Shown piece after piece: positions 3,828 through 56,430 of a stretch of 64,000 nt of DNA. A model generated the notes under the pieces. That model did not search any database. It was not told the DNA's origin and worked only from the letters and a program-made list of their open reading frames with translations. Numbering within the stretch: position 1 is the first letter of the stretch; every line of letters starts with the position of its first letter. Source of the stretch: Parabacteroides distasonis ATCC 8503 (GTDB lineage: Bacteria; Bacteroidota; Bacteroidia; Bacteroidales; Tannerellaceae). Where the stretch lies: the NCBI RefSeq assembly GCF_000012845.1, contig NC_009615.1, forward strand, positions 2,069,501 to 2,133,500, written 5' to 3'. The position numbers and the translations under genes were made by a program.

Positions 3828-3919
3828 ATGCCCATCGTAAGCTCCTTAGAATGCCCATTGTTAGCTTGCTAGAATGCCCATCATAAGGAGCTTACAATGG
3901 GCATTCTAATAAACCATGT
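3828..3919. repeat. Intergenic 23-bp tandem repeat with inverted last unit
   Basis: Three imperfect 23-bp units begin at 3828, 3851 and 3874, each starting ATGCCCAT and mostly ending TTAGA or TTACA. The array closes with an inverted copy: AGAATGCCCAT (3871-3881) pairs perfectly with ATGGGCATTCT (3897-3907), and GTAAGCTCCTTA pairs with TAAGGAGCTTAC (3884-3895). It lies between the converging recQ and ThuA genes and may fold as a shared 3' structure. See the 22-bp array family described in the findings. Confidence 0.8.
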
Positions 3920-3920
3920 A

Positions 3921-4832
3921 TCACCGCTTATAATTACTCCGATTAGATACTTGTTTTTCCGTCGGGAAATCAGCGGGAACCTTTTGGGTTACCTTGCCGG
4001 TAGCGGCCCATTCCGCACCTCTTAACAAGGTAATCTGGAAGCCGGCGCATTGCATAGCCGGACAATTCTCTACCGTTTCCCCCGCGTGCCCTAACATCGT
4101 ATGAAATATACGGGCATTCCCATAATCAACCGTAAAGATCAACGGCTCCTCACGGCCGGAGCCTCCGGTCTCCTTATCCGAATAAGCCGTATACAAGCAA
4201 TCCTTTATATTTCCCGGGCCACGCATACGATCATATAACTCATCCTGCGCATGTTTCCATTTATTCGGCAGCCCCTTCATGATCGGATGCTCATGGTTCC
4301 GGGCATTCAGCACATACTCATGCTGCTTGCCATGAGAGCCACCCACGCCCGCCGAGCTATCCTTTATCAACTTACCATCGCTCCAATATACATAGGGTCC
4401 CGCTTTCTCATCCCGGTTCTCCCAACCGCCCAAGGCACAAATCTTATTGTATTCCGGCCAGTTCACGAAGGCGTTATCAGCGGCATGATAGACCACGACA
4501 CCTCCACCTCCTCGCACATATTCCAAGAAACGACGGTTTGTCTCCTCCGGCCAAGCATCCCCATTATAATCCAGCACCACCAGCTCGTAAGGACTGAAAT
4601 CCAAGACAAAGCCGGACATATCCTTCCCTGCCTCCGGAGAGACCGCGAAATCCACGGAGAAGCGTCCCGAGTTCTCCAATATCTGTTTAAGCACCACATG
4701 GCTCACCTGCCAATTATGGTTATTCTGCCCCGTTATTAATAACGTCTTGATCGGCTTACGGGCCGACATGCCGCATACAACCAGTAAAGCGGCCAAAAGG
4801 AAAACGACCTTCCTACAAAATACATGTCTCAT
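3921..4832 (-). CDS. Exported ThuA-domain protein (trehalose-utilisation-like)
   Basis: This 303-aa protein belongs to the ThuA-like family, a glutamine-amidotransferase-like fold common in Bacteroidota sugar loci, whose biochemical role is poorly defined. The first about 24 residues form a signal peptide (basic start, then VFLLAALLVVCGMSA), so it should be periplasmic. Family features seen are the first beta strand LLITGQNNHNW, VVYHAADNAF in the middle and TMLGHAGE near the C-terminus. It lies 40 bp downstream of the ROK kinase on the same strand and is probably co-transcribed, which suggests carbohydrate metabolism. The family call is firm; the substrate is unknown. Confidence 0.85.
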   Translation of the reverse strand: MRHVFCRKVVFLLAALLVVCGMSARKPIKTLLITGQNNHNWQVSHVVLKQILENSGRFSVDFAVSPEAGKDMSGFVLDFSPYELVVLDYNGDAWPEETNRRFLEYVRGGGGVVVYHAADNAFVNWPEYNKICALGGWENRDEKAGPYVYWSDGKLIKDSSAGVGGSHGKQHEYVLNARNHEHPIMKGLPNKWKHAQDELYDRMRGPGNIKDCLYTAYSDKETGGSGREEPLIFTVDYGNARIFHTMLGHAGETVENCPAMQCAGFQITLLRGAEWAATGKVTQKVPADFPTEKQVSNRSNYKR

Positions 4833-4872
4833 GGTATGAATCAGATTTAAGTAAACAATTGATTATCCGTCT

Positions 4873-5739
4873 TTATTTATCATAACAAAGGGAAGCGGCA
4901 CCGAATAGCCCCGGATTCTCCAGCTTAGAGAAACGTATCTTCAAGTTCTTGATAGAGTTCGGATAAGCGAAATCCTTCAAGTCCTCATACATGCTCTCCT
5001 CAAACAACTCATGGGCGGCGGTCACCGAGCCTCCGAAGACGATCATCTCCGGATCTACCGTCAATACCACGATCTTGATAGCGGCGGCCACATGTACGCC
5101 CAACTGCCGGTAAGCCTCCAGCGCCTGCTCGTCCTTCCGCATCGCACGGGTGTACATCTCCTTCCCATCCACGCCCCATACGTTCATGAAATAGGAACCG
5201 CTACAGAAATATTCCAAGATATGACCTTGGTAGGGAATCATGCCAAATTCTCCCGAGCCACAATTAGCGTCGGCCAACAGCTTGCCATTCTGGATAATTC
5301 CACCCCCCAAGCCCGTACCCAAGGTGAGACCCACGAAGTTATCAACCGTCTTTCCTTCGCCAAAGATACGCTCACCCAGAGCGAAGCAATTCGCGTCGTT
5401 ATCCACATAAACCGGCACGGAGAAGCAAGCCTCCAATATCTCCTTCAAATGTACCTCCTCCCAATGCGGGATATTCACCACGTTATATACGATCCCCTTC
5501 TCACGATCCACCACGCTCGGCACACCGATACCGATAGCTACCACACTCTCGTCCCACACGGAACGGATCACCTCTATCAAAGCCTCCAATGTCTCCTCGC
5601 AATCCGCGGCGTCCTTGGGAGTCGGGGCGCTCCCCTGAGCCACTAATCGATCCCCTACGATACGGCCGGCACGCATATTCGTCCCCCCTAAATCCACTCC
5701 GATATAAGCGTTTTTCTTCTCTACACTCATTCTTTCCAC
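4873..5739 (-). CDS. ROK-family sugar kinase (glucokinase-like)
   Basis: A cytoplasmic ROK sugar kinase of 288 aa that should phosphorylate a hexose or amino-hexose with ATP. The phosphate loop GVDLGGTNMRAG is at about 14-25 and the catalytic Asp is in VDNDAN (about Asp 115). LTLGTGLGGGI is the second glycine-rich signature. The usual ROK zinc site (GHxxxx...CxCGxxGCxE) is missing: the region reads GEFGMI and later LEYFCSG, so it lacks the His and the Cys triad. Bacteroidota have such zinc-less ROKs, but the substrate cannot be read from sequence. A TAGCTTTG -7 box at 5765-5772 fits the ATG at 5739; Met 4 is an alternative start. Confidence 0.88.
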   Translation of the reverse strand: MERMSVEKKNAYIGVDLGGTNMRAGRIVGDRLVAQGSAPTPKDAADCEETLEALIEVIRSVWDESVVAIGIGVPSVVDREKGIVYNVVNIPHWEEVHLKEILEACFSVPVYVDNDANCFALGERIFGEGKTVDNFVGLTLGTGLGGGIIQNGKLLADANCGSGEFGMIPYQGHILEYFCSGSYFMNVWGVDGKEMYTRAMRKDEQALEAYRQLGVHVAAAIKIVVLTVDPEMIVFGGSVTAAHELFEESMYEDLKDFAYPNSIKNLKIRFSKLENPGLFGAASLCYDK

Positions 5740-5764
5740 GATATTAAATTAGATTATACTCCCA

Positions 5765-5772
5765 CAAAGCTA
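5765..5772 (-). promoter_or_regulatory. Candidate -7 box of the ROK kinase promoter
   Basis: On the minus strand this reads TAGCTTTG, matching the Bacteroidota -7 consensus TAnnTTTG. The implied start site lies about 15-20 nt before the ATG at 5739. It directly follows the T-tract of the upstream terminator. No clear -33 TTG was found at the usual distance. Confidence 0.55.
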
Positions 5773-5774
5773 AC

Positions 5775-5808
5775 AAAAAAGGCAATGTTACGAATAACAT
5801 CACCTTTT
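5775..5808 (-). terminator. Terminator upstream of the ROK kinase
   Basis: On the minus strand AAAAGG-TG-ATGTT pairs with AACAT-TG-CCTTTT around a 6-nt loop, and a T-run follows. It should end leftward transcripts coming from the transporter gene and separate them from the ROK/ThuA unit. Confidence 0.6.
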
Positions 5809-5867
5809 AAACTGATAAATTTAATACATCTATGCTTTTTATTTTCCCCGGCGTCAACTCCATCCAG

Positions 5868-5958
5868 CACGTATACCGACATCGCCTCACGCCTACGCTC
5901 GCATAGGCCAACGTCGATATACGTGTGAGGCAATGCCGATATACGTGTAAGACGGCAC
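5868..5958. repeat. Intergenic 22-bp repeat with long dyad
   Basis: Two direct units starting CGATATACGTGT lie exactly 22 bp apart (5915 and 5937). A third copy at 5868-5890 is inverted and pairs with 5925-5947 in 20 of 23 positions. GCCTA/TAGGC forms a smaller hairpin in between. The array is in the 3' region of the transporter gene, just after its stop codon. Confidence 0.75.
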
Positions 5959-5974
5959 CATTATAACTACCGCA

Positions 5975-7651
5975 TCAAGCGAAGAACAAGATCAATAATT
6001 GCGCCGTAAGTACCCTCAAGAACATGGTCAAGGGGTATACCGTAGCGTAACCTACGGAAGGAGCGTCGTTTCCAGCCGTAGCGTTCGAGTAAGCCAAAGC
6101 GGGCGGATCCGTCGTACTACCGGCGATCAAGCCCATTAAGGTGAAATAATTGATCTTATAGAAATAACGGCCTACACAACCGATGATCAGCAAAGGAATC
6201 GTTGTGATAATGAAACCGTAACCGATCCAAGCGAATCCACCATTGTTCACGATCGTATCCACAAAACCATCGCCGGCACTGATACCCACACAAGCGAGGA
6301 AGAGGGTGATACCGATCTCACGCAACATCAAGTTAGCGCTCTGGGTCGTATAGGTAACCAGCTTATAACGGTAACCAAAACGGCTAATCAAGATCGCCAC
6401 GATCAACGGACCTCCCGCCAAACCTAACTTAACCGGTTGCGGAATGCCCGGGAACGTGATAGGAATACTCCCCAAGACAATACCGAGGGCAATGCCGATA
6501 AAGATCGTGATCAAGTTCGGCTCGTTCAAGCGTTTCAAGGAGTTACCCAATACCTTTTCTACATTCGAGACAGCCGTCTCGGTACCCACCACATTCACAC
6601 GGTCGCCCACCTGCAACGTCAGAGCCGGCGTAGCTACCAAGTCCACGCCCGCACGGTTGATACGGGTGATATTGATACCATATAATTTACGCAGTTTCAA
6701 CTGTCCCAGCTTCTTGCCGTTCAACTCCGGTTTCGTGATCAAGATACGGCGGTTGATAAACTGGCTCTCCATACGAATCCATTGCTTGCGCTCCATATCG
6801 ATCTCCTCGCCAATGAATGTCTTTACGGACTCGGCATCTTGATCGGTCGTGATCACGAAAATCTTATCATCCTCATTCAAGATCGTACCGGCGGAAGCGA
6901 TCTCGATCTGCTTGTTATCATTACGCCATACACGGGAAATCACGAAATCCAGATGATCCATCAAACCGGATAACTCCCCTACCGTCTTACCGAAAACCGC
7001 CGGGTTCTTTACGACCAGCGAGATCGGTTTCGCCTCATTCGTATGCGAGGCATCCTCCTTATTCAAATCGTCATTCTCCTTATCGAAATTCACACGGAAT
7101 ACGTAACGTACGAAAATGATCGAAAGAATAATACCGATCACGCCCAGCGGATAAGCCACGGCGTAACCCAAGGCGATCGTATTATCTGAAACCCCGTACA
7201 TATCGGAATAAGCCTGCTGAGCCGCACCTAATCCGGGGGTATTCGTCACCGCCCCCGATAAAATACCCACCATCGTAGGCATCGGAATACCTGTCACGAA
7301 ATGCAATACCAAAGCCGTAGCCACGCCAAGGAAGACAATTCCACAGGCTAGCATATTCAACGTGATTCCCCCCTGCCTAAAAGACGAGAAGAAACCCGGC
7401 CCGACTTGCATACCTACCGAATAAACAAATAAGATCAATCCAAATTCCTTAAAGAAATGAATCACATTGTGGTTAACCGTAAACCCAAAATGCCCTAAAA
7501 TAATACCTACAAACAACACCAAGGTAATCCCAAGCGAAATCCCAAACACCTTTATCTTTCCCAACTGAATGCCGGCGGCAATCACGAAAGATAGTAAAAG
7601 GATAGAATGCCCGATACCTTCTCCCCATAATAAGTCGTTTATCCAATCCAT
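5975..7651 (-). CDS. AspT/YidE/YbjL-type membrane transporter with two TrkA_C domains
   Basis: This inner-membrane protein has the layout of the AspT/YidE exchanger family: a hydrophobic half of several helices, two consecutive TrkA_C (RCK_C) cytoplasmic domains in the middle ([15 protein letters not shown]... and [14 protein letters not shown]...), then a second homologous hydrophobic half. Both halves carry the small-residue motif seen in AspT ([15 protein letters not shown] and [14 protein letters not shown]). The frame is open to 7705, but I chose the ATG at 7651 because [10 protein letters not shown] leads directly into the first helix and the extra 18 residues look untypical. Relatives exchange aspartate/alanine; the substrate here is unknown. 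It is divergent from the cyclophilin gene. Confidence 0.85.
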
Positions 7652-7759
7652 GCTAAAATCTTTAAAAATCTTATTACCTATTAATAAAGACGCGAAGTTA
7701 GGCATTTACTTTGTGTTTTACAACATAACACCTATATTTACCTTTTAAATTAAAATCTC

Positions 7760-8569
7760 ATGAAAAAGATATATTACATTTTATCAGCATTGTTCCTTTG
7801 CGTGGTAGCCACCTCGGCGCAAGAAGCTGGAAAAACGGTAGTTATTAAAACCAATGTAGGTACTATGAAGGCCATCCTGTACGATGATGTGCCTAATCAC
7901 ACCCGTACTTTCATCGAACGGGCAAAACGGGGGGATTTCAACGGGACCTTATTCACCCGTGTCCTGCCGGAGTTTATGATCCAAGGAGGAGCCCCGGATT
8001 CCAAGAACGCTCCCGCCGGTGCTAAATGCGGCTTTGGAGATCCTTCCGCCGAGATACCGCCCGAGATCAACGAGAAATATTTCCATAAGAAAGGAGCCTT
8101 GGCCGCTCCCCGCCAACCGGACGATATCAACCCGCAAAAGAAATCGGATATGTCGCAATTCTTTATCGTGCAGGGGAAGGTCTATAGGGAAACCGAACTG
8201 GATACGTTAGAGCGTACCGCCAACTATCCGGCCCGGCAAAAGGCCCTGAAGGAGTTTTATGCGCCGGTACGTGCGGAGCTGAATATGATAAAGATGAGTA
8301 ACAAACGGGAGTACCAGAAGCGATTGAGAGCGATCAACGCCCAGATAGACTCCGTTATTCAAGCAACTCCCGGGCATTTGCTATTTACGGACGAGCAACG
8401 GAAGGCTTATACCACCGTAGGCGGTTGCCATCATCTGGACGGCACCTATACGATCTTCGGGGAGCTGACGGAGGGATTCGACGTTTTGGATCAGATCGCC
8501 ACCCAGCCAAAAGACCAGAATGACCGTCCGAAGAAAGACATCCGCATCCAAAGTATAACGATCGAATAA
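7760..8569 (+). CDS. Exported cyclophilin-type peptidyl-prolyl cis-trans isomerase
   Basis: A 269-aa cyclophilin-like PPIase that should assist protein folding in the periplasm. Residues 1-20 are a signal peptide (YYILSALFLCVVATSAQ). Cyclophilin core elements are visible: NVGTMKAILYDDVPNHTRTF, GTLFTRVLPEFMIQGG, a MSQFFIVQG strand and TIFGELTEGFDVLDQIA near the end. A charged helical insert of about 70 residues (roughly 130-200) splits the domain, as in many Bacteroidota exported cyclophilins. The next gene starts 12 bp downstream and is probably co-transcribed. Confidence 0.92.
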   Translation: MKKIYYILSALFLCVVATSAQEAGKTVVIKTNVGTMKAILYDDVPNHTRTFIERAKRGDFNGTLFTRVLPEFMIQGGAPDSKNAPAGAKCGFGDPSAEIPPEINEKYFHKKGALAAPRQPDDINPQKKSDMSQFFIVQGKVYRETELDTLERTANYPARQKALKEFYAPVRAELNMIKMSNKREYQKRLRAINAQIDSVIQATPGHLLFTDEQRKAYTTVGGCHHLDGTYTIFGELTEGFDVLDQIATQPKDQNDRPKKDIRIQSITIE

Positions 8570-8581
8570 TTCACCACTCCT

Positions 8582-8971
8582 ATGTTAAAGAGAGATTTCA
8601 TCATGGTACAGATCGAGGAACTGGGCAAAGTGATCGCCCAGATCATCTTCAATCGTAATTCCAACGATGGGGCACGCAAGAACCCCGAGTTAATCCAATC
8701 CGTCTACACATTCTTAAAACTGGATAACGATTTCTTGCTGAACACGCCTATCGACGGTATCCGCACTTATCTGGACGGTGATGATTCGTGCGGCCTCCAA
8801 CGCATGGAGCTGGCGAGCAAGACCTTGCTGGAAGAAAGTTTCCTTTTGCCGGAGGCGCAAGGTAAAAAACTCCGGGCAAGAGCGAAAGAGCTATTGGAAT
8901 ATATCCAACGCAACGACACTACGTTCTCGTTGGAACGAGTGGCGTTGCTGGAAGAGATAAATAACTATTGA
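8582..8971 (+). CDS. Small cytoplasmic protein, DUF6483-like
   Basis: The 129-aa product begins MLKRDFIMVQIEELGKVIAQ, which resembles the DUF6483 family as I remember it; no function is assigned to that family. It has no signal peptide and is rich in charged helices. It follows the cyclophilin by 12 bp. Its last 7 bp overlap the 3' end of the converging GH43 gene, so the two transcripts meet tail to tail with no room for a terminator. Confidence 0.75.
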   Translation: MLKRDFIMVQIEELGKVIAQIIFNRNSNDGARKNPELIQSVYTFLKLDNDFLLNTPIDGIRTYLDGDDSCGLQRMELASKTLLEESFLLPEAQGKKLRARAKELLEYIQRNDTTFSLERVALLEEINNY

Positions 8972-10098: not shown

Positions 10099-10103
10099 TT
10101 TTC

Positions 10104-11708: not shown

Positions 11709-11721
11709 TGTTTATTATATA

Positions 11722-13092: not shown

Positions 13093-13125
13093 TCTATCTT
13101 GAATTTGGCGTAAAGATACAAAAAA

Positions 13126-16706: not shown

Positions 16707-16751
16707 CATAAATTATTTCGAAAGAGAAACAGTTTACGGGGAAAACTTTCT

Positions 16752-16839
16752 ATTTTCATCGGGGTGAAAATCTTTTTTCATTATGATGAGAATCTATTTT
16801 CATCAAGGAGAAAATCTTTTTTCATCAAGACGAGAATTC
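16752..16839. repeat. Four 22-bp tandem repeats between divergent promoters
   Basis: Four consecutive units of exactly 22 bp start at 16752, 16774, 16796 and 16818. They follow the pattern nTTTTCATCAnGGnGAnAATCT with a few changes each. The array fills the space between the leftward GH92 promoter and the rightward arginase-family promoter. A 22-bp step is about two helical turns, so equivalent bases face the same side of the DNA. Confidence 0.85.
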
Positions 16840-32530: not shown

Positions 32531-32596
32531 CAAAGTAAGTTAATTAAAATGCCAAAGTAAGTTAACTTACTTCGCCGATGAAGTTAACTTACTTTT
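32531..32596. repeat. 22-bp tandem repeat with an 18-bp palindrome
   Basis: Three 22-bp units start at 32531, 32553 and 32575. CAAAGTAAGTTAA recurs between units 1 and 2, and AAGTTAACTTACTT between units 2 and 3, both at exactly 22 bp. The central unit contains the perfect palindrome AAGTAAGTTAACTTACTT (32555-32572). The array lies just beyond the M28 peptidase stop codon. Confidence 0.8.
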
Positions 32597-38019: not shown

Positions 38020-38030
38020 CAAACCGCGCA

Positions 38031-38228
38031 TACGGTAGCGCAGGCTTGCAGATATGGTAGTACAGACTTGTAGATACGTTCGTGCAAACTTGCAGATACG
38101 CTTGTGTAAATTTGCAGATACGTTCGTGCAAACGTGTAGATACGTTAGTACGGATTTGTAGATACGGTAGCGCGGGCTGACACATAAGGAAGTACAGGCC
38201 GGCACATACGGTAGTACAGGTCCGTATT
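38031..38228. repeat. Nine 22-bp tandem repeats in a convergent gap
   Basis: Nine consecutive units of exactly 22 bp (starts 38031, 38053, 38075, 38097, 38119, 38141, 38163, 38185, 38207) follow TACGnTnGTnCAnnCTTGnAGA, with units 7-9 diverging in their second half. They begin 11 bp after the porin stop codon. No spacer separates the units, so this is not CRISPR. It is the longest array in the window. Confidence 0.9.
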
Positions 38229-38325: not shown

Positions 38326-39750
38326 TTAAGCCTCTACATCCCAATTCTCGGCAGCCATACGTTTGTAGCTACGCAGACGCCATTTAGCGTTCTCCTCGGC
38401 GGCGGCAAACAACTCAGCGGCCTCAGCCGGATATTGTTTAGCTACGGAAGCGAAACGAACCTCACCCTTCAAGAAGTCTTGGAACTTGCTCCAATCCGGC
38501 TCCTTGCTATCCAAGGTGAACGGATTCTTGCCCTCTGCCTCCAAAGCCGGGTTGTAACGCCACAAGTGCCAGTAACCGCATGCTACGGCTTCTTTCTCCT
38601 CAGCTTGCGACTTACCCATACCCTTCTTCAAACCGTGGTTGATACAAGGAGCGTAAGCGATGATCAAGGAAGGACCGTCGTAAGCCTCGGCCTCGCGGAT
38701 CGCCTTCAATGTCTGGGCTTGGTCGGCGCCCATAGCGATCTGAGCCACATATACGTAACCATAAGTAGTAGCCATCAAGCCAAGGTCTTTCTTACGTACC
38801 CTCTTACCGGAAGCGGCGAACTTAGCGATAGCGCCCACCGGAGTAGCCTTCGAGGACTGACCACCCGTGTTAGAGTAAACCTCGGTATCCAATACCATGA
38901 TATTTACGTTCTTGCCGGAAGCGATCACGTGATCCAAACCACCGTAACCGATATCGTAAGAAGCACCGTCACCACCGATAATCCATTGAGAACGTTTTAC
39001 CAAGAAGTGAGACAATTCCTTGATCTGAGCGCAAACCGGACAACCCTCCTTGATGCCTTGCTCAACGAATGCCATGATTTGCGGAGCCAATTCCTTCGTC
39101 TTCTCGGCGTCGTTCTGGTTAGCGATCCAAGCGGCGGCTATTTCCTTGGCCTCAGCCGGAGCATGCTCGCCCACGGTGATCTGTTGCAACAAGCCTTCCA
39201 AACGTTTACGCATCTTCTCGTTCGCCAATTCCATACCCAAGCCGAACTCGCAGAAGTCCTCGAACAAAGAGTTTGCCCAAGCAGGACCTTGACCCTTCTC
39301 GTTCGTTGTATAAGGAGTGGAAGGAACAGAACCGGAGTAGATAGAAGAACATCCGGTAGCGTTAGCCACCATCTCGCGGTCGCCGAACAACTGGGTGATC
39401 AACTTCACGTACGGAGTCTCGCCACAACCGGAGCAAGCGCCTGAGAATTCAAACAACGGAGTAGCGAACTGTGAGTTCTTCACGTTAGACTTCACGTCTA
39501 CCAAGTTTTGCTTAGAAGAAACGTTAGCTACGCAGTAGTTCCAGTTATCGGCCTCAGCCAACTGGCCTTCCAGCGGAACCATAGACAAAGCCTTGTTGCC
39601 CTTGAATCCCGGACAGATATCGGCGCAGTTACCGCAACCCAGACAGTCGAGAACGTCTACCTGCATACGGAACTTCATACCCTTCATAGCGGCCGGAGCC
39701 TTCACGTCCAACATAGCGAAGCTAGCGCCCTTCTGCTCCTCATCGTTCAA
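38326..39750 (-). CDS. nifJ: C-terminal part of pyruvate:ferredoxin oxidoreductase (after the stop)
   Basis: The open part downstream of the TAA, counted from its first ATG (codon 710 of the full gene), is 474 aa. It carries the second ferredoxin cluster (DCLGCGNCADICPG), SGACSGCGETPY with the third cluster's Cys residues, and the TPP-binding domain (IIGGDGASYDIGYGGLDH and SNTGGQSSKATP). Without the N-terminal half it should not be a working PFOR. There is no promoter or ribosome-binding feature to suggest separate expression. The true frame continues upstream to the stop at 39793. Confidence 0.7.
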   Translation of the reverse strand: MNDEEQKGASFAMLDVKAPAAMKGMKFRMQVDVLDCLGCGNCADICPGFKGNKALSMVPLEGQLAEADNWNYCVANVSSKQNLVDVKSNVKNSQFATPLFEFSGACSGCGETPYVKLITQLFGDREMVANATGCSSIYSGSVPSTPYTTNEKGQGPAWANSLFEDFCEFGLGMELANEKMRKRLEGLLQQITVGEHAPAEAKEIAAAWIANQNDAEKTKELAPQIMAFVEQGIKEGCPVCAQIKELSHFLVKRSQWIIGGDGASYDIGYGGLDHVIASGKNVNIMVLDTEVYSNTGGQSSKATPVGAIAKFAASGKRVRKKDLGLMATTYGYVYVAQIAMGADQAQTLKAIREAEAYDGPSLIIAYAPCINHGLKKGMGKSQAEEKEAVACGYWHLWRYNPALEAEGKNPFTLDSKEPDWSKFQDFLKGEVRFASVAKQYPAEAAELFAAAEENAKWRLRSYKRMAAENWDVEA

Positions 39751-39792
39751 TACGAACGGACGGATAGAAGCGTGAGGACAAACGTAAGCACA

Positions 39793-41877
39793 TTAGTTAC
39801 ACTGGATACAGTTCGCCTCATTCCAAACCGGAACGAAAGCGGCCACGCCACGTTTCTCGTATTTAGCGGTTCCTTGCGCCCAAGTACCATCCTCGATGCC
39901 CTTGAATGCGGAAACCTTCAATAAATCGCCATCCTGAGCGTTGATCGGACGAACTACCTCGTTGATGAAAGCGGGATCGTTGTTTACGACAGCCTCATCA
40001 TCCGGAAGGTTAGCCCAAGCGGGATCAACCGTCAATTGGTTGTACTCGCCACCACGGTCTACAGCCGCGTAGTTCTTGTTAACCACGTCCTCGCCCTTCT
40101 TACCGTAAGACTTAACGATGAATTTCTTCATCTGCTCGATAGCCAAGTCTACAGGGATAACACCCGTGATACGGAAGAAAGCGGACTGGAGGATCGTATT
40201 GGTACGGTTACCTAAACCGATCTCCAAGGCGATCTGTGTGGCGTTGATATAATATACAGTGATATTCTTCTGAGCGAAGTAACGTTTTACCTTATTAGGC
40301 AAGTGCTTAGCCAACTCCTCAGCGCCCCAAACGGTATTCAACAAGAAGGTACCGTTCTCACGCAAACCACGAGTCACGTCGTACATGCGCAAATAAGCCT
40401 GAACGTGGCAAGCCACGAAGTTCGGGGTATTCACCAAATAAGTAGAACGGATCGGATGATCACCGAAACGTAAGTGAGAACAAGTGAAACCGCCGGATTT
40501 CTTAGAGTCGTAAGAGAAATAAGCCTGACAGTATTTATCCGTGTTATCACCGATAATCTTCACCGAGTTCTTGTTAGCGCCTACCGTACCGTCGGCACCC
40601 AAACCGTAGAACTTAGCCTCGAACATACCCTCACCGCCCAAGGCGATCTCTTCCTTCTGAGGCAGAGAAGTGAAAGTAACGTCATCCACGATACCGATCG
40701 TGAACTGGTTCTTCGGCATCGGCAACGCCAAGTTCTCGAATACGGACAGGATCTGAGCCGGAGTCGTATCCTTAGAACCCAGACCATAACGGCCACCTAC
40801 GATAACCGGAGCATCCTCCTGACCATAGAAGCAGTCTTTTACGTCCAGATACAACGGCTCACCGTTAGCACCCGGCTCTTTCGTGCGATCCAATACGGCG
40901 ATACGCTTAGCGGTCTTAGGCACGGCAGCCAAGAAATGCTTAGCGGAGAACGGACGATACAAGTGAACGGATACCAAACCTACCTTCTCGCCCTTAGCGA
41001 TCAAGTGATCGATAGCCTCACGAGCGGCCTCCGTAACAGAACCCATGGCGATGATCACACGCTCAGCGTCCTCAGCTCCGTAATAATCGAACAAACCGTA
41101 TTTACGGCCTGTGATCTTGGAAACCTCGTTCATATATTCTTCTACGATAGCGGGAACTGCCTCGTAGTACGTGTTGGAAGATTCTCTGTGTTGGAAGAAA
41201 TGATCCGGGTTCTCGGCCATACCGCGAGCGACCGGTCTCTCCGGGTTCAAGGCACGGGCACGGAACTCAGCCAAAGCTTTCTGGTCGATAAGCGGAGCCA
41301 AGTCCTCATTCTCCAAAGCCTCGATCTTCTGGATCTCGTGAGAGGTACGGAAACCGTCGAAGAAGTTCACGAACGGCACACGAGACTTGATCGTAGCCAA
41401 GTGAGCTACACCGGCCAAGTCCATAACCTCCTGTACGGAACCCTCGGCCAACATGGCGAAACCTGTCTGACGGGCAGACATCACGTCTTGATGGTCACCG
41501 AAGATACACAACGCATGAGAAGCCAATGTACGAGCGGATACGTGGAAAACGCAAGGAAGCAATTCACCGGCGATCTTGTACATATTAGGGATCATAAGCA
41601 ACAAACCTTGAGAAGCAGTGTAGGTTGTTGTCAAGGCACCAGCTTGCAATGAACCGTGAACAGCACCTGCGGCACCACCCTCTGATTGCATTTCCTGTAC
41701 CATTACAGTCTCGCCGAAAATATTCTTACGTCCGGCTGCAGCCCATTCATCTACATATTCAGCCATTGTAGACGACGGAGTGATGGGGTAAATCGCGGCT
41801 ACCTCGCTGAACATATACGAGATATGAGCAGCGGCCTGATTACCATCACAGGTTAAAAATTTCTTCTGTTTTGTCAT
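39793..41877 (-). CDS. nifJ: N-terminal part of pyruvate:ferredoxin oxidoreductase (before the stop)
   Basis: This 694-aa part contains the PFOR pyrimidine-binding domain I (GNQAAAHISYMFSEVAAIYPITPSS start region with the PITPSS motif), domain II (GRKYGLFDYYGAED...), and domain III (GLGADGTVGANKNSVKIIGD), which binds CoA. It stops within the first Fe-S motif after CIQCN. PFOR oxidises pyruvate to acetyl-CoA and CO2 and reduces ferredoxin, a central step in anaerobic Bacteroidales. The truncated chain lacks the ferredoxin and TPP-binding domains. Confidence 0.7.
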   Translation of the reverse strand: MTKQKKFLTCDGNQAAAHISYMFSEVAAIYPITPSSTMAEYVDEWAAAGRKNIFGETVMVQEMQSEGGAAGAVHGSLQAGALTTTYTASQGLLLMIPNMYKIAGELLPCVFHVSARTLASHALCIFGDHQDVMSARQTGFAMLAEGSVQEVMDLAGVAHLATIKSRVPFVNFFDGFRTSHEIQKIEALENEDLAPLIDQKALAEFRARALNPERPVARGMAENPDHFFQHRESSNTYYEAVPAIVEEYMNEVSKITGRKYGLFDYYGAEDAERVIIAMGSVTEAAREAIDHLIAKGEKVGLVSVHLYRPFSAKHFLAAVPKTAKRIAVLDRTKEPGANGEPLYLDVKDCFYGQEDAPVIVGGRYGLGSKDTTPAQILSVFENLALPMPKNQFTIGIVDDVTFTSLPQKEEIALGGEGMFEAKFYGLGADGTVGANKNSVKIIGDNTDKYCQAYFSYDSKKSGGFTCSHLRFGDHPIRSTYLVNTPNFVACHVQAYLRMYDVTRGLRENGTFLLNTVWGAEELAKHLPNKVKRYFAQKNITVYYINATQIALEIGLGNRTNTILQSAFFRITGVIPVDLAIEQMKKFIVKSYGKKGEDVVNKNYAAVDRGGEYNQLTVDPAWANLPDDEAVVNNDPAFINEVVRPINAQDGDLLKVSAFKGIEDGTWAQGTAKYEKRGVAAFVPVWNEANCIQCN

Positions 41878-47715: not shown

Positions 47716-47799
47716 GCTTTAAAAAACCTTAGTTTACACGAAAGCGCTCAGTTAGCCGCTTTGTTAGATTAATGATCGTAAATGTAAGCTATTTCGAAG

Positions 47800-47807
47800 T
47801 ATATTTG
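47800..47807 (+). promoter_or_regulatory. Candidate -7 box of metF
   Basis: TATATTTG matches the consensus and lies 28 bp before the ATG at 47836. Confidence 0.55.
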
Positions 47808-47835
47808 CTACATTCGCGTCAAAAATAATTAAAAT

Positions 47836-48789: not shown

Positions 48790-48885
48790 GATACAATAGG
48801 GGTTTTTCCACGCTGAGTTGTCTAATAGAAGTACACGATTGAACAATCATGTACTAAGTATGGTTATTTTTAAAATTCTAAGGTA

Positions 48886-48987
48886 ATGAAATACATATTC
48901 TTTATTGGACTTGACTTGTTATTGTATCCGTTTTTAGTTTTACTCTATATATGTCAATTGATATTTACAAAACCCCGCACCTTTTGA
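48886..48987 (+). CDS. Possible 33-aa membrane peptide
   Basis: In the 254-bp gap between metF and holB, a short frame reads MKYIFFIGLDLLLYPFLVLL followed by YICQLIFTKPRTF. It is almost entirely hydrophobic with a basic tail. There is no clear promoter and the local DNA is A/T-rich, so this may be chance. The rest of the gap holds nothing recognisable. Confidence 0.25.
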   Translation: MKYIFFIGLDLLLYPFLVLLYICQLIFTKPRTF

Positions 48988-49043
48988 TATCTGAATACTT
49001 TTCCGTAACTTCGTTCCTTATTCTATAGAAAAGGAAATATCTC

Positions 49044-50168: not shown

Positions 50169-50172
50169 GTCT

Positions 50173-51495: not shown

Positions 51496-51519
51496 GATGA
51501 ATCTTAAATAAAAGGGAGG

Positions 51520-51550
51520 CAAAGGTAGTAATAAGATGCCAGTCACACAA
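51520..51550 (-). promoter_or_regulatory. Promoter of the MATE transporter gene
   Basis: On the minus strand TTG (51548-51550) and TACCTTTG (51520-51527) are 20 bp apart. The start site would be about 18 nt before the ATG at 51495. Confidence 0.6.
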
Positions 51551-51603
51551 TATTACCCCATGCGATCCGTTTCTTATCATATTACATTATTATACGAAGA
51601 GAT

Positions 51604-52602
51604 ATGGTTACAAAACTCATCATGGCCTGCATTTTGTCCGCTACGCTATTGAGCTGCAACGGGCAAAACACAAATACGATCAACTACGCTACCGTCGAAC
51701 CCCTGCATATCAATCGTTTTGACAAGGATTTATTCCGGCTGATCGATACGGGAGATACCACCTTGCAACCCGAACTAATCAAACAATACCCGGAAATGCT
51801 GGATATCATCGGGAAAGGCATATTAAACCTGCAAACCATCGAGACTCCCGGCTTCTTCGAGAAAATGCGGAATTATTACTCGGAGCCTACCTTGAAAGGC
51901 TTGTATCGTGACGCTATCACCCAATATGATTCCGTGGAGGATATCGAGAAATCCTTGGGGTACGGATTCGCCTATCTAAAGGAGAATTTCCCCTCGATGC
52001 AGATCCCTGCTATCTATATGCATGTATCTGGTTTCAACCAGAACGTATTGGTAGGCGATAGCCTGCTTTCCCTTTCCATCGATAAGTATATGGGAAAGGA
52101 CTATCCCTTGTATCAGGATTTCTTCTATGACTCCCAGAAATTGAAAATGCAACGTGGACTTGTAGTCCCGGATTATCTGGCGGGTTGGCTCATGTCCGAA
52201 TATCCTTTCGCAGGAAAAGAGAACGTATTGCTGGACCGGATGATTTACGAGGGAAAAATCAAATACCTGCTCTCGCAAGCCTTAGGCGTTCCCGATGCCG
52301 CCGAGCTAATGGGATACACCGAACAGGCCTACAACTGGTGCAAGGACAACGAAGGAACAATCTGGAAAGCAATCATCGAGCGCAAGCATCTTTATACCCC
52401 GGATCAACTGACGACTTCCCAATATTTCGAGGATACCCCGACCATTTTCCCCGGGAACGACGCTCCCGGGAATATCGGGACTTGGATAGGCTGGCAGATC
52501 ATCAACCAGTACATAAAGGAGACGGGATCTACCCCGGAGGCGTTGATGCAAAACAACGACGCCCAAGAAATCCTAACCGCCTCAAAGTACAAACCCCTAT
52601 AA
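51604..52602 (+). CDS. gldB: GldB-family lipoprotein
   Basis: A 332-aa lipoprotein (lipobox ATLLSC, about Cys 18) that matches GldB, known from Flavobacterium gliding motility and type IX secretion but also conserved in non-gliding gut Bacteroidales. Typical blocks are HINRFDKDLFRLI, FAYLKENFPSMQIPAIY and the C-terminal GNIGTWIGWQIINQYI. Its role in non-gliding species is not known. It is divergent from the MATE gene. Confidence 0.85.
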   Translation: MVTKLIMACILSATLLSCNGQNTNTINYATVEPLHINRFDKDLFRLIDTGDTTLQPELIKQYPEMLDIIGKGILNLQTIETPGFFEKMRNYYSEPTLKGLYRDAITQYDSVEDIEKSLGYGFAYLKENFPSMQIPAIYMHVSGFNQNVLVGDSLLSLSIDKYMGKDYPLYQDFFYDSQKLKMQRGLVVPDYLAGWLMSEYPFAGKENVLLDRMIYEGKIKYLLSQALGVPDAAELMGYTEQAYNWCKDNEGTIWKAIIERKHLYTPDQLTTSQYFEDTPTIFPGNDAPGNIGTWIGWQIINQYIKETGSTPEALMQNNDAQEILTASKYKPL

Positions 52603-52783
52603 ACAGGAAAACCGCCCTATTCTCACGAACAAGACGGATAACCTAATCTAACTTAATTCTAATACCATGAAAAACACTATATCTTAATAACAAGGCTTTT
52701 AAAAAAAGGTTCAATGGAATGAGATTTTAAACCTCTTATTTACCTTGGTTGTTGTAACAGGAAACGAAAACAAGGTGAGTCCG

Positions 52784-54355
52784 ATGGATAATGATCTCTT
52801 AGATATAACAAAATTGAGGCGCTGGCGGATCTGGAAATTGAAACTTATTGACGCCAGGCTTTATTTTGTAAGCATTTTCGTGGGATTGCTGACCGGGTTG
52901 GTAGCGGTACCTTATCACTATCTGCTCCAGCAGTTATTCAATAGCCGGAAACTTTTTTTCGACGGTCATTACCCTTGGTATTTCCATGTCTTGTTCTTCT
53001 TCACGCTATGGGGTATATTGCTTTGTGTGAATTGGATGGTCAAGAAGATGCCGCTGATTACCGGTGGGGGCATTCCCCAGACACGGGCGGTTATCAATGG
53101 CAGGATCACTTATAAGAACCCGTTGACACAATTAATCGCCAAGTTCACGGGAGGGATATTAGCAATCAGCGCCGGCCTGTCCCTTGGTCGTGAGGGGCCG
53201 TGCGTACAGATCGGATCTTACGTGGGGAATATCATTTCCAAATGGGGACACGTATTGGCTGGAGAGCGCAAGCAACTTTTGGCCGCCGGCGCAGGTGCCG
53301 GATTGGCCGCCGCTTTCGCCGCTCCCCTCGCTTCCTCACTTTTGGTGATCGAGTCCATCGAACGGTTCGACGCTCCCAAGACCGCCATTACCACCTTGCT
53401 GGCAGGGGTCGTGGCGGGAGGCGTAGCGAGCTTGATTTTTCCCTTCAACCCCTACTCGCAGATTAGCGCTATTGCCCCGCAGGCTACTTTTATAGATCAA
53501 CTGAAGTTGTTCTTATTTCTGGCCGTGGTTATTTCCGTCTTCGGGAAAATTTACTCGATGTTTACCCTTTGGTGCAAGGATTTCTTTACCAGACTGAAGC
53601 ATCCTCCTTATATGAAGATGTTGTACCTGCTTATCATAGCGTATACGATCTCATTGACGGAGATCGACTTGACAGGAGGAGGCGAGCAATTCCTTATCAT
53701 GCAAGCGATGCATGGATATCACCCCGTTTTATGGATAGCGGCGATGATGCTCATCCACTTGATATTCACGTCTCTCTCTTTCTCCTCCGGACTGCCGGGA
53801 GGGAATTTCATCCCTACACTAGTTACCGGGGGATTGTTCGGGCAGATCATCGCCTTATTATTGGTGAAGTATGGTTTCATTGAGACGGAGAGCATCAGCT
53901 ATATCATGTTAATCAGCATGGTAGGTTTCTTGGTGGCGGTAGTCCGGACACCACTGACGGGTATCGTCTTGATTACGGAGATAACCGGGCATCTGGATGT
54001 ATTCTACCCCTCTATCATTGTCGGCGGGCTTACGTATTACTTCACGGAAATGCTACAGATAAAGCCCTTTAACGTGGTTCTCTATGACGAGATGATCTCG
54101 ACTCCAGCCTTCCGTGCCGAAGGGCGTTCCAGCCTGTTCGTCGAGATCATGACAGGTGCCTATTTCGACGGGAAGGAGGTAGATCACCTCACCCTCCCCC
54201 AACGTTGTATCATCAAGACTATTCACCGGGATCGCAAGGACTTGGCTCCTGCTGGACAGACCCTTATCCCCGGCGATCAGGTAGAGATCGAGATCGATTC
54301 GCAGGATATCGAGAAGCTGTATGAGCCGCTGGTTAGCATGGCGAACATCTATTAA
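52784..54355 (+). CDS. ClC-family chloride channel/antiporter with C-terminal TrkA_C domain
   Basis: A 523-aa ClC protein that moves chloride or other anions across the inner membrane. The selectivity-filter segments are GGGIPQT (variant of GSGIP), SLGREGPCVQIG with the gating Glu, and SSGLPGGNFIPTL. The C-terminal about 80 residues (FVEIMTGAYFDGKEV... to EKLYEPL) form a TrkA_C/RCK_C regulatory domain. The frame can be read from a TTG at 52745, but MDNDLLDITK at 52784 is the first ATG and the better start. It converges on the porin gene, with a hairpin between. Confidence 0.9.
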   Translation: MDNDLLDITKLRRWRIWKLKLIDARLYFVSIFVGLLTGLVAVPYHYLLQQLFNSRKLFFDGHYPWYFHVLFFFTLWGILLCVNWMVKKMPLITGGGIPQTRAVINGRITYKNPLTQLIAKFTGGILAISAGLSLGREGPCVQIGSYVGNIISKWGHVLAGERKQLLAAGAGAGLAAAFAAPLASSLLVIESIERFDAPKTAITTLLAGVVAGGVASLIFPFNPYSQISAIAPQATFIDQLKLFLFLAVVISVFGKIYSMFTLWCKDFFTRLKHPPYMKMLYLLIIAYTISLTEIDLTGGGEQFLIMQAMHGYHPVLWIAAMMLIHLIFTSLSFSSGLPGGNFIPTLVTGGLFGQIIALLLVKYGFIETESISYIMLISMVGFLVAVVRTPLTGIVLITEITGHLDVFYPSIIVGGLTYYFTEMLQIKPFNVVLYDEMISTPAFRAEGRSSLFVEIMTGAYFDGKEVDHLTLPQRCIIKTIHRDRKDLAPAGQTLIPGDQVEIEIDSQDIEKLYEPLVSMANIY

Positions 54356-54386
54356 TCGCTGATCTGCCAATCGCCTCGAAAAGAAA

Positions 54387-54415
54387 TGCCACACCAAGAA
54401 TCCCCCGGTGTGGCA
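54387..54415. terminator. Bidirectional terminator between ClC and DcaP genes
   Basis: TGCCACACC (54387-54395) and GGTGTGGCA (54407-54415) form a perfect 9-bp stem in an 80-bp convergent gap. T-rich sequence follows on the minus strand and a shorter one on the plus strand. Confidence 0.75.
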
Positions 54416-54436
54416 CATTTACAAAACGCTACATTA

Positions 54437-55720
54437 TCAGAAGTTATATTGAGCGGAAACATTAAGTCGATTGGCGTGGCGGGTCATATCGTTGAAATCG
54501 GTACGCCAGCCTCTCAAGTACTCGGCGCCGACTTGCAGATTGGCGTTCACGTTCCAGAAAATGTTGGCTACCAAGTATTGACCGTAGCGGTATTGATCCG
54601 ACGGGGTAACCGGGTAATCATTCTCGCTGTATAAACGAGTCTGGCTATAGGTGCTGGAGACGAATACCTTCGGCGTGATATTATACTGCAAGCCAGCATA
54701 CCAACCCATCATCGGAAGCACTTGCATCTTGCCTTTGGCCTCGGGGTCCGGAACCAGATCCACGTCCAGATTACTGATATCATTCAAGAACTGGCTGATA
54801 CCCCGGCCGTAAGTAGCCTGACCGTAGAAGTTCAGCTTGCTCGTCACATTGAACGTAGAGGCGGCAAACACGCCCCAGCCGGCCTTAGACTCGGCCCGTT
54901 GCGCCACCAAGTTCTCGTACGTCATATTACGTACGATACCAGCTACACGGATATGGCTGCTCTTATTCCAAGCGTATTGGATATAGGCAGGGAAGTTCGG
55001 CATACGTTGGTTACTGATATTCACGCTTTGGTTCGTGATGCCATCCACCACTGGCATCTCGATACCTACACCCGCTTTCCATCCCTTACCGAAAGCACGC
55101 TCATAGCGTAACAGGGTGGCACGGCTGAAAACCTGTCCGGCAGGCCCCGCATAATCGATCGAGGGCGGAAGGGCGGCCAGATCCATGAAGGTACTATAAT
55201 CGTAACCCATCGTGAAACCAAGGAAAGACACATAGGCGTTCTGGAGCTCGAAGACCTTGCTGCCTCCCCGGAAGTTACCCGCCGTATACACGACGAAATC
55301 CCCGAGGCGTTTGGTACGGCCCACCAATTTCAAGAATATCGTACTCGTAGTGGCGTCCATCTGGAACTGGTTACGGACGTAGTTCTGTTCACCATTCGGG
55401 ATCATGGACGGATAGAAATCGACATCATCCGAGATACCGCCGAAATCATACTCCGCCGTAGCCTTCACGTAACCGCCGATACCCAAGGCGAAACGTCCCT
55501 TACGATCGGTCAATACGAAGCGGGGGGCTTTCGGGTCGTGGAAACGAGGGCTCTGCGTCTCATTCATTATCCTCACGATTTCATCACCTGCCTTGTCTTG
55601 GCTGACAAGGACTATCGAATTTGGCGCATCATCCTCGATGACCACCTTCTGAGCCTTAGCGGGAGCCGATAAGAATCCCATGCCTAGCAGTAATACTGCT
55701 CCTTGTACAAATAGTCTCAT
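54437..55720 (-). CDS. DcaP-like trimeric outer-membrane porin
   Basis: A 427-aa beta-barrel with a signal peptide ending APAKAQ. Family features are the PRFVLTDRKGRFALGIGGYVKATAEYDFGG block and the C-terminal LNVSAQYNF. DcaP porins admit negatively charged solutes such as dicarboxylic acids in Acinetobacter. A short coiled N-terminal stretch (VSQDKAGDEIVRIMNETQSP) precedes the barrel. The gene is divergent from the heavy-metal operon; no functional link is shown. Confidence 0.85.
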   Translation of the reverse strand: MRLFVQGAVLLLGMGFLSAPAKAQKVVIEDDAPNSIVLVSQDKAGDEIVRIMNETQSPRFHDPKAPRFVLTDRKGRFALGIGGYVKATAEYDFGGISDDVDFYPSMIPNGEQNYVRNQFQMDATTSTIFLKLVGRTKRLGDFVVYTAGNFRGGSKVFELQNAYVSFLGFTMGYDYSTFMDLAALPPSIDYAGPAGQVFSRATLLRYERAFGKGWKAGVGIEMPVVDGITNQSVNISNQRMPNFPAYIQYAWNKSSHIRVAGIVRNMTYENLVAQRAESKAGWGVFAASTFNVTSKLNFYGQATYGRGISQFLNDISNLDVDLVPDPEAKGKMQVLPMMGWYAGLQYNITPKVFVSSTYSQTRLYSENDYPVTPSDQYRYGQYLVANIFWNVNANLQVGAEYLRGWRTDFNDMTRHANRLNVSAQYNF

Positions 55721-55815
55721 AAATGTGTTTTGTTTAGATTAATTACCTACTTTGAACAAGGCTATAAAGAAAAGGTTCTGATTTTAACAACCCTACGAGC
55801 ACTTTTTCCGTCCTA

Positions 55816-55845
55816 TTGCCCATTCAAAAAATATTCATATATTTG
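55816..55845 (+). promoter_or_regulatory. Promoter of the heavy-metal efflux operon
   Basis: TTG at 55816-55818 and TATATTTG at 55838-55845 are separated by 19 bp. The start site is about 12 nt before the ATG at 55864, which makes the longer frame from 55816 (a TTG codon, here the -33 element) very unlikely to be translated. Confidence 0.7.
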
Positions 55846-55863
55846 CGGAATATATTACTTGGG

Positions 55864-56250
55864 ATGAGAAGATTTTTATTGTTCATACTCGCTGTTTTTT
55901 ACCTCGGGGTTTCCTCCGGGTTTGCGCTGAATTACCATTATTGTATGGGTAAGTTGGCGGAGGTGAGTTTGCAGTATCTTGACACTTGCCCCAGTTGCGG
56001 TGAGGCGGGCACGTCCCATAAGTGCTGCTCTACCGAGACGGAATATGTTAAGTTATCCGTCGATCAGGATGTGGCGAATACGCTCGTGCAATTGTCCGCT
56101 CCTGTCGCTGTAGTTTTGTTGTTCGATCTACTCGACTCCTATAAGATCGCCGGGCGAGACGAGACAACACGTTCCAATCCCTTTATTAATCCACCCAAGG
56201 AGAATAGCGCTATCCCGTTATTCGTCCATCATTGTACTTTTTTGATTTAG
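55864..56250 (+). CDS. HYC_CC_PP-family protein of the metal-efflux operon
   Basis: A 128-aa membrane or exported protein with an N-terminal hydrophobic segment. It shows the three marks that name the family: NYHYCMG (HYC), HKCCST (CC) and INPPKEN (PP). The family typically sits next to cation-efflux genes in Bacteroidota. The Cys/His residues (HYC, CPSC, KCC) suggest that it binds or senses soft metal ions, which is an inference. It is the first gene of the operon, followed by a 238-bp gap with a repeat array and then cusA. Confidence 0.85.
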   Translation: MRRFLLFILAVFYLGVSSGFALNYHYCMGKLAEVSLQYLDTCPSCGEAGTSHKCCSTETEYVKLSVDQDVANTLVQLSAPVAVVLLFDLLDSYKIAGRDETTRSNPFINPPKENSAIPLFVHHCTFLI

Positions 56251-56298
56251 CGGTATAGGCTTCCTTTTTAAAAGGCGATTTACGTCTGTTTACGCACG

Positions 56299-56430
56299 AG
56301 TACCGGCGTAATCTATTGCAAGTACTGGAGTAATCCACCGCAAGTACTGGAGTAATCCATTGCAAATACTGGAGTAATCCATTGCGAGTACTGGCGTAAA
56401 ACATCACGAGTACTCATGTGATCGCTTGCC
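56299..56430. repeat. Six 22-bp tandem repeats inside the metal-efflux operon
   Basis: Six units of exactly 22 bp start at 56299, 56321, 56343, 56365, 56387 and 56409. The pattern is AGTACTGGAGTAATCCATTGCA; units 2-4 are nearly identical and units 5-6 degenerate. The array lies between the HYC_CC_PP gene and cusA on the transcribed strand. Confidence 0.9.

Follow-up and report, generated by a model that had tools for sequence, protein, structure and literature searches.

The window, a stretch of 64,000 nucleotides from Parabacteroides distasonis ATCC 8503 (NC_009615.1, positions 2,069,501 to 2,133,500), contains six short repeat arrays, to none of which a strand is assigned:

3828..3919, no strand: palindromic element with a 23-bp step, family F8 (TRF period 23)
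5868..5958, no strand: element on a 22-bp lattice, family F3 (TATACGTGTGAGGC..GCC), with a 23-bp inverted repeat (by eye and by family matches)
16749..16839, no strand: 22/44-bp array of TTTTCATCnnGGTGAAAA-like units (TRF 22/44)
32531..32596, no strand: 22-bp lattice of AAGTAAGTTAACTTACTT palindromes, family F5 (lag-match scan, period 22, score 17)
38030..38228, no strand: about nine units of 22 bp, TACGGTAGTGCAGACTTGCAGA (TRF 22/44)
56299..56430, no strand: six units of 22 bp, AGTACTGGAGTAATCCATTGCA (TRF period 22)

With genes called as the longest ORF, the arrays are intergenic apart from 16749–16839, which lies between a GH92 gene (minus strand) and an arginase-family gene (plus strand) and overlaps two called ORFs at their 5′ ends; the initial annotation had placed all arrays outside genes, which holds apart from this overlap. 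In strain TSDC17.2 the arginase gene starts ~40 bp past this array, and array and arginase gene are jointly missing in three of three related species. The array at 3828–3919 consists of three units plus an inverted terminal half-unit, with ATG(CC/GG)CAT alternating with TAAGGnnCTTA, and occupies the whole gap between the stop codons of convergent genes for a RecQ-type helicase and a ThuA-domain protein. The others are located 3′ of an Asp-Al_Ex permease gene (5868), between SusC-type and M20/M25/M40-type peptidase genes (32531; names from strain TSDC17.2), between a porin gene and nifJ that converge (38030), and between a hypothetical gene and an RND efflux permease gene (56299).

The arrays are real, all six places being seen on the lattice with units head-to-tail and free of spacers, as first described, and 24 arrays were found in the first 464 kb versus none in its first-order Markov resample. 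TRF detects four of the six, and the lag-match scan adds 32531. At 5868–5958 the direct array was called by neither method; by eye, GATATACGTGT recurs there in two units at a step of exactly 22 bp, and a stretch of 23 bp recurs inverted, with 20 of its 23 positions matching. This stretch scores 41 against arrays elsewhere that belong to a single family, where 20 shuffles gave at most 28, and the element has partners at loci L127, L119 and L128, four more places by BLAST (two strong, two weak) and a counterpart in genome G413.

Dispersed families and their step

Within the window the six arrays are mutually unrelated, as had been noted, but five have clear sequence partners in the sampled 18% of the genome: besides 5868–5958, these are 3828–3919 (L119, score 56 versus a null maximum of 23), 16749–16839 (L010, 55 versus 30), 32531–32596 (L116, 72 versus 23) and 38030–38228 (L016, 48 versus 27). 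Partners of 56299–56430 are borderline only, their score of 26 equalling the best of 20 shuffles (26). Across the sample, 34 of 861 array pairs are related versus 2 in shuffles, and 11 clusters contain 33 of the 42 arrays (single-linkage, at a score also reached by 2/861 shuffled pairs). The arrays belong as copies to about a dozen dispersed families and are not independent local inventions; nor, falling as they do into several families, do they all derive from one mobile element. F8 has at least 18 copies in this genome, with 17 loci other than 3828 at E ≤ 2.2e-4 (the BLAST counts are minimum values, as 40 of the 50 first-look candidates were scored). The F5 core has 17 matches at 10 loci (reversed control 0/1) and the F1 core 46 sites versus 1 for its reversed control. 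F5 is present in 4 of 38 genomes of the genus, and two families are confined to groups of related species.

The sharp 22-bp peak anticipated in the initial annotation is present. By lag-match scan of 864 kb of this genome, 22 bp is the most frequent period (22 of 61 arrays, with a further 8 at 44), versus one array each at 21 and 24; by TRF, 27 of the 70 arrays in the own-genome sample have period 22, versus 6 at 21 and 4 at 24. Related genera, sampled from one gene neighbourhood across many species, likewise have the peak (TRF 33/110), which is absent from ten more distant genomes of the same class or phylum (TRF 1/37) and from E. coli (TRF 0/1), both small samples (400 kb and a further 100 kb, respectively). 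Among intergenic arrays only, period 22 accounts for 21/47 in this genome, 26/79 in relatives and 1/13 elsewhere. Pooled p-values overstate significance, since arrays of the same family are not independent. Lattice arrays number 34 per 800 kb, which extrapolates to roughly 200 in the whole chromosome; no description of these Parabacteroides families was found in the literature searched, in which subscription journals were scarcely covered.

Step length goes with the family: 22 in most, 23 in F8 and 41 in some arrays of relatives. It is fixed inside both families measured, as 62 of 63 successive exact-core spacings at the fetched F8 loci are 23 or 46, in keeping with the 23-bp step first reported at 3828–3919, and all 11 near pairs of F1 are spaced 22 or 44. 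The exceptions are one F5 pair spaced 43, one F8 spacing of 47, an 80-bp gap separating variant F8 cores at L263, and a degenerate F5 locus of this genome whose offset versus G413 is no clean multiple. That sequence-unrelated families have a near-identical 22/23-bp step in common is surprising, and this sharing of one step is supported in both this genome and related genera. It had been taken to argue against one sequence-specific binding site; within any one family, a single sequence-specific factor is possible. A modular DNA-binding protein of changeable specificity, or another length-counting machine, might instead write arrays locus by locus, as the 3′ side of nifJ could suggest, where Parabacteroides have either 22-bp (the window, L038) or 41-bp (L031) arrays; with fixed consensus sequences at tens of loci and vertical inheritance of the families, we consider such a machine highly improbable.

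Inheritance and palindromic units

Array length is identical between two strains for 15 of 15 lattice arrays (one other strain compared), so that neither the copy-number variation looked for following the initial annotation nor a hypervariable VNTR is borne out; unit number at 38030–38228 and 56299–56430 is likewise unchanged in strain TSDC17.2. Differences between species are mostly of whole units (+23, −44, +22, 23). Whole-unit copying is real but rare, and inheritance between close species is vertical. Substitutions versus G413 amount to 31/1024 (3.0%) in arrays, 62/1605 (3.9%) in intergenic flanks and 1647/31171 in coding sequence, for the 12 of 30 G413 loci that were usable, with the array figure covering F1 and F8 units only (at the remaining loci the own match was too short or there was too little scored array). 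Arrays and flanks show no clear difference and thus give no evidence of purifying selection. The gain and loss of whole units, together with conservation not above that of the flanks, would suit ordinary functionless minisatellites produced by replication slippage, their common step an accident of shared descent; we regard this as very unlikely, as lengths are constant between the two strains, the families are scattered over many loci, and slippage leaves unexplained both the palindromic units and the one step in unrelated families.

The main clue, that the units are palindromes, was absent from the initial annotation. Palindromic units occur in 25 of 42 arrays (p<0.05 versus column permutations preserving tandem structure) and, among relatives, in 20 of 39 intergenic arrays of period 20–23; of five window arrays tested one by one, four miss p 0.05. 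One element typically comprises 3–9 units, and each unit is an imperfect palindrome of ~18 bp plus a short linker, so that dyads follow one another at 11 (or 11.5) bp.

Thirteen aligned F1 type I copies have common flanks that end in ACAATAAG-like direct boxes; the ends of F8 are predominantly inverted (C..G in 10, C..C in 5, G..G in 1 and G..C in 1, n=17); marks on the F1 arms of different units agree in 10 of 11 opposite pairs (by eye, with some copies of shared descent); and this genome and G413 differ in one presence or absence (L127 against L272). All of these would favour hairpin-based non-autonomous mobile elements, in which the array, as a single strand or cruciform, forms one long hairpin, a transposase or recombinase sets the step, and the resting cell needs no bound protein. 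The matching arm marks do fit a hairpin too, but a hairpin alone demands no exact period, and the L127/L272 pair, the sole one examined, is no clean empty site; we judge this explanation possible, if unlikely.

Genomic context

Among 39 arrays, 11 lie between convergent and 15 between tandem genes. F8 is found at gene 3′ ends, with all 17 loci between called genes, 10 of them convergent and none divergent, and 13 of the 34 F1 loci are flanked by divergent genes; as these contexts differ, a single function may not suit all families. The convergent and tandem settings, and the strong predicted folds of some arrays, would be consistent with a role in RNA, the arrays being transcribed at the 3′ ends of genes to serve as terminators, stability hairpins or processing units. 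We find this improbable: on the transcribed (sense) strand G-U is not in excess of A-C mismatches (37 versus 47), the sense strand is the more stable in just 10 of 15, local hairpin arms are without covariation (Z −2.6 and −2.3), the window has no Rfam match, the array 3′ of nifJ at L029 comes after an ordinary hairpin with a T run (by eye), and the divergent F1 loci fit poorly. The RNA unit size once suggested as the source of the step is likewise unsupported as far as strand-specific RNA is concerned.

F1 is biased towards the origin (p 0.0004 for clustering, 0.00015 for distance), a bias not significant for F8 (0.23) or F5 (0.23), and the 29 non-F1 arrays are, if anything, farther from it. 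A PDDEXK_2 / AAA-ATPase-like nuclease was considered as a candidate partner, since copies of F1 also lie upstream of several such genes; three PDDEXK_2 genes have a common sequence directly before the start codon (by eye), so that paralogous duplication can explain part of this association.

Known elements and the source of the step

Porphyromonas gingivalis belongs to the Bacteroidales, and its BrickBuilt MITEs, named in the initial annotation as a possible relative, proved an apt lead, the tandem, spacer-free, intergenic layout being alike. In the published account (PMC4596501), BrickBuilt is a MITE that forms long stem loops. BrickBuilt and the 41-nt MITE464/PgRS element resemble the arrays here in their spacer-free tandem repeats of 22, 23 and 41 nt, about 19 intergenic copies, stem loops and dyad symmetry, the gain and loss of whole repeats and a position that can be behind a terminator; promoter activity is reported there, and the description as a MITE with stem loops would again favour the hairpin-based mobile element. 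F8 is likewise an intergenic, spacer-free 23-bp tandem, whereas most other families here have 22 bp and several families occur within one genome. As for the leader and tail that BrickBuilt copies share, common flanks occur among the F1 type I copies, and by eye none were seen in F8. The IS5-type TIR of BrickBuilt (GAGACC...GGTCTC), searched within 400 bp of an array with up to 2 mismatches, is not enriched (2/39 arrays versus 89/2000 random intervals), so that membership in BrickBuilt by this mark is negative; the result also weighs against the hairpin-based mobile element, as does the absence of a Y1/HUH transposase by PF01797.

REP/BIME sequences with RAYT are GTAG- and CGTC-tagged palindromes (PMC3733652, PMC6006769). 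The arrays here are likewise short, dispersed intergenic palindromes in many copies, often clustered; they differ in their exact head-to-tail step without spacers and in having several families of equal step. A RAYT/REP source was rejected, since no PF01797 (Y1 transposase) was detected in this genome; across 118 genomes of the phylum, the same search is positive in 82. Unlike in CRISPR, unique spacers between repeats are missing. Small mobile sequences of the ERIC/RUP type are short, non-coding, partly palindromic and intergenic, as are the arrays here, but they are not known to be composed of 22/23-bp units. The arrays are REP/BrickBuilt-like dispersed palindromic elements.

We lean towards reading the arrays as several families of dispersed intergenic palindromic elements that function at the DNA level, with a step that comes from a binding partner on one helix face. 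Such elements would encode no enzyme of their own and would be spread by a trans-acting enzyme. They would act as double-stranded DNA, with a dimeric DNA-binding protein, or a set of related proteins with one for each family, sitting on successive dyads, which would face one side of the helix at two in-vivo turns (~11 bp each) per unit. A putative dimer phased in this way would leave the sequence free to vary between families but not the spacing, and, on geometry only, a partner on one helix face is probably what sets the common step. Since B-DNA in solution repeats every 10.5 bp, the step should be 21 if the in-vivo value is not closer to 11; neither a binding protein nor a mobilising enzyme was found in this analysis. 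It is a good deal less probable that the arrays belong to a Bacteroidales-wide DNA-organising system, in which related dimers would polymerise on family-specific arrays at two in-vivo turns per dimer, with F1 marking the origin domain and promoters and F8 gene 3′ ends.

Were the step constrained, unrelated repeat families would reveal a physical ruler of ~11 bp per dyad, and BrickBuilt would be one instance of a broader pattern. Such a constraint, if true, would offer a handle on a DNA-binding or mobilising factor in the Bacteroidales.

Period and distribution of the arrays

The tandem arrays of the window are confirmed on the sequence, and the sharp 22-bp period that the initial annotation had proposed to look for appears with both TRF and a lag-match scan, in the organism's own genome and in its relatives. 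For the own-genome sample, the window was joined by 40 stretches of 20 kb taken at even spacing (864 kb in all, ~18% of the genome); the lag-match scan (score ≥15) found 61 arrays in it, with period 22 in 22, 7 in 11, 44 in 8, 23 in 5 and other periods in few, and over the first 464 kb (score ≥16) a Markov resample gave 0 arrays versus 24 in the real sequence. By TRF, 27 of 70 arrays of period at least 15 in the own sample had period 22, followed by 15 (10), 21 (6), 23 (5) and 44 (5). Period 22 accounted for 33/110 arrays in 80 related loci of Bacteroidales records (period 21 for 21), for 1/37 in ten genomes from farther out in the class and phylum, where 15 and 21 led with 9 each, and for 0/1 in 100 kb of E. 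coli. For intergenic arrays only, the counts were 21/47 (own), 26/79 (relatives) and 1/13 (elsewhere). Arrays of the 21–23/43–45/66 type reached 7.4 per 100 kb in Bacteroides, 5.7 in Parabacteroides, 4.9 in Mediterranea, 4.7 in Paraprevotella, 3.8 in Tannerella, 2.4 in rumen Bacteroidaceae, 1.6 in Paludibacteraceae, 1.3 in others, 0.6 in Phocaeicola and 0 in Barnesiella, densities that rest on small samples, the relatives' loci all coming from one gene neighbourhood. The 11 period-7 arrays of the 864-kb sample form a second class (for example L014:13515, L024:8199 and L026:9537, L-numbers denoting other stretches examined, from the own genome or relatives), and seven of them terminate no more than 10 bp from a called start codon.

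Sequence families and their step

The window arrays had been described as unrelated in sequence; this is true among themselves, but five of the six have partners elsewhere in the own genome scoring above the best of 20 shuffles, and 56299 is borderline, its partner equalling it.

Window arrays (named by start) and their partners in the own genome
3828: partner L119, score 56; best of 20 shuffles 23
5868: partner L127, score 41; best of 20 shuffles 28
16752 (also 16749): partner L010, score 55; best of 20 shuffles 30
32531: partner L116, score 72; best of 20 shuffles 23
38031 (also 38030): partner L016, score 48; best of 20 shuffles 27
56299: partner L128, score 26; best of 20 shuffles 26

Pairwise comparison of 42 own arrays related 34 of 861 pairs (2 when shuffled), and 11 clusters take in 33 of the 42. 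Genome searches placed the 3828 element at 17 more loci (E≤2.2e-4) plus two weaker ones, the 5868 element at four more places (two at E≤1.4e-16, two weak) and the 32531 core at 17 occurrences over 10 loci. These comparisons indicate array families dispersed in the genome, rather than unrelated inventions. The core of F1, a family outside the window, has 46 sites in the own genome versus 1 for the reversed pattern, at 34 array loci plus one site within a gene. The family of the 32531 array (F5) is present in 4 of 38 genus genomes, and F1 core sites number 46, 24, 14, 7 and 5 in five of these and at most 4 in the remaining 33, where the control gives 0–8; to judge from such counts, the families are restricted to clades.

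Within families, spacing is strict: all 11 pairs of F1 cores lying <100 bp apart are spaced 22 or 44, and in the 3828 family (F8) 62 of 63 spacings from one exact core to the next (34 in the own genome, 29 in the related genome G413) are 23 or 46 and one is 47. Other exceptions are an F5 pair spaced 43 and a gap of 80 bp separating variant F8 cores. The step, 22 or 23, is therefore a property of the family.

F8 units carry ATG(CC or GG)CAT in alternation with TAAGGnnCTTA. The ends of 17 copies are inverted in 10, alike in 6 and opposite in 1, and their gene contexts are convergent in 10, tandem in 7 and divergent in none, against a background of 175 tandem, 75 divergent and 57 convergent gaps of at least 60 bp. 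F1 arrays have 3–5 scored units at 31 of 34 loci. In 13 aligned type I copies (~190 bp) the array lies within conserved flanks, each of which terminates in a box resembling ACAATAAG, the two boxes being oriented alike; other copies, by eye, have mostly 3 units and roughly inverted flanks. F1 contexts are divergent in 13, tandem in 17, convergent in 3 and at an edge in 1, with 13 of the 34 loci falling within a small or edge ORF call. Eighteen of the 34 lie inside a 0.76-Mb arc near the likely origin (p 0.0004 for the arc and 0.00015 for mean distance). The origin position was taken from the minimum of GC skew, around 3.5 Mb, and from a parS-like site that the sample contains at 3,710,284; no such bias was seen for F8, F5 or other arrays. 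Examples among the 34 F1 loci are L024:4632 and L124:1543-1627. F1 elements also directly precede several PDDEXK_2 and AAA-ATPase-like/PDDEXK_9 genes (L170, L172, L177, L178, L184; L197–L200), and at the PDDEXK_2 locus L200 the ACAATAAG-bounded flanks, by eye, occur without an array.

Strain and species comparisons

The window, which occupies 2069501-2133500 on a single contig of 4,811,379 bp, is 98.9% identical to a record of P. distasonis TSDC17.2 over 2.9 kb and 99.5% over 42.9 kb. Length was unchanged in all 15 comparable lattice arrays (tandem units with a step mostly of 22 bp, or 23), whereas 3828, 5868, L177 and L178 were not found in the strain stretches used and 16749 aligned only past the array. 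Over the whole comparison, three non-lattice arrays counted in, arrays had 13/1746 substitutions and flanks 114/14416; for the 38031 array alone they were 5/191 versus 7/800.

Among genomes of related species, G413 has a 3828 array longer by one 23-bp unit, G432 one with an equal number of units and G426 a truncated one; 5868 is found in G413, the genome alignable there (no aligned sequence came from G432 or G426), and the 16749 array is absent from all three together with its adjoining arginase gene. Seven further F8 loci compared with G413 comprise five equal in units, one differing by 23 bp and one absent in the own genome. Of eight F1 loci, six kept their units, one is shorter in the own genome by exactly 44 bp, and the eighth lies in an inverted segment outside the alignment. 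At one F5 locus G413 and G432 differ by 22 bp, the own copy being degenerate, with a length difference that is no clean multiple.

The inverted F1 segment (~500 bp, L176 versus L215 of G413, 82% identity) adjoins a gene resembling, by eye, a tyrosine recombinase, and is possibly an invertible switch. The 3′ end of the nifJ-type gene bears arrays at 3 of 13 other Parabacteroides loci, with units partly related in L029, unrelated in L038, and a 41-bp step in L031. The gene itself is a single 3552-bp CDS in TSDC17.2; window 38326-41877 is called as two ORFs, 38326-39750 and 39793-41877.

Palindromic units and known repeat systems

Many lattice units are imperfect palindromes, such as AAAACACGTACGTGTTTT or AAGTAAGTTAACTTACTT, each with 4 bp in addition. 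When unit columns were permuted alike across copies, preserving tandem structure, palindromy reached p<0.05 in 25 of 42 own arrays and, among intergenic arrays of period 20–23, in 16/26 own and 20/39 of relatives. Within the window 32531 falls below 0.05 on its own (p 0.003); singly, 3828 (0.09), 16749 (0.053), 38030 (0.24) and 56299 (0.23) do not, 5868 being left out of the test. If each period of a tandem array contains one dyad, or symmetry centre, dyads recur at intervals of half a period, which is 11 or 11.5 bp in this case. Marked F1 arm variants tend to agree within an array, a left arm with a right one, in 10 of 11 opposite pairs as read by eye, evidence that is moderate because the copies are related.

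When tandem-context arrays were read on their transcribed strand, dyad-pair mismatches were GT in 37 cases versus AC in 47; without a GT surplus, RNA-level pairing is unsupported, and with it the RNA unit suggested in the initial annotation. Arms showed no covariation across the local dyad, their match being, if anything, below that of distant arms, with Z at −2.6 in the own genome and −2.3 in relatives. A pattern symmetric on both strands, constant in spacing and free in sequence fits a reading in which the arrays probably act as double-stranded DNA bound by a putative dimeric protein. Such a protein would read them from one helix face, and the 22-bp step would equal two turns at 11 bp per turn, a value close to what is estimated for negatively supercoiled DNA in vivo.

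The main rival to a dimeric protein is a hairpin-recognising mobility enzyme, the arrays then being hairpin-based mobile elements. A PF01797 search found no Y1 transposase encoded in the own genome, and of 118 genomes from the phylum, 82 were positive in the identical search. Palindromes of the form GTAGAGACG..CGTCTCTAC, present at 7 places (for example L127:775 and L122:3518), resemble GTAG-tagged REPs, in a genome without that transposase; one of them occupies the site of an F8 element in G413.

Membership in BrickBuilt was rejected, the IS5-type TIR test having failed, as was a RAYT-driven REP, the PF01797 transposase being missing. Some arrays of other Parabacteroides have a 41-bp step (L031:11497-11688 and L034:12538-12795, by eye partly palindromic), the period reported for P. 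gingivalis MITE464; tandem repeats of 22, 23 and 41 nt are reported for P. gingivalis (PMC4596501). By analogy, the elements appear to work like those of the REP/BrickBuilt type. Unlike those, several sequence families here have one step length in common, and this is the new aspect: several families, one ruler.
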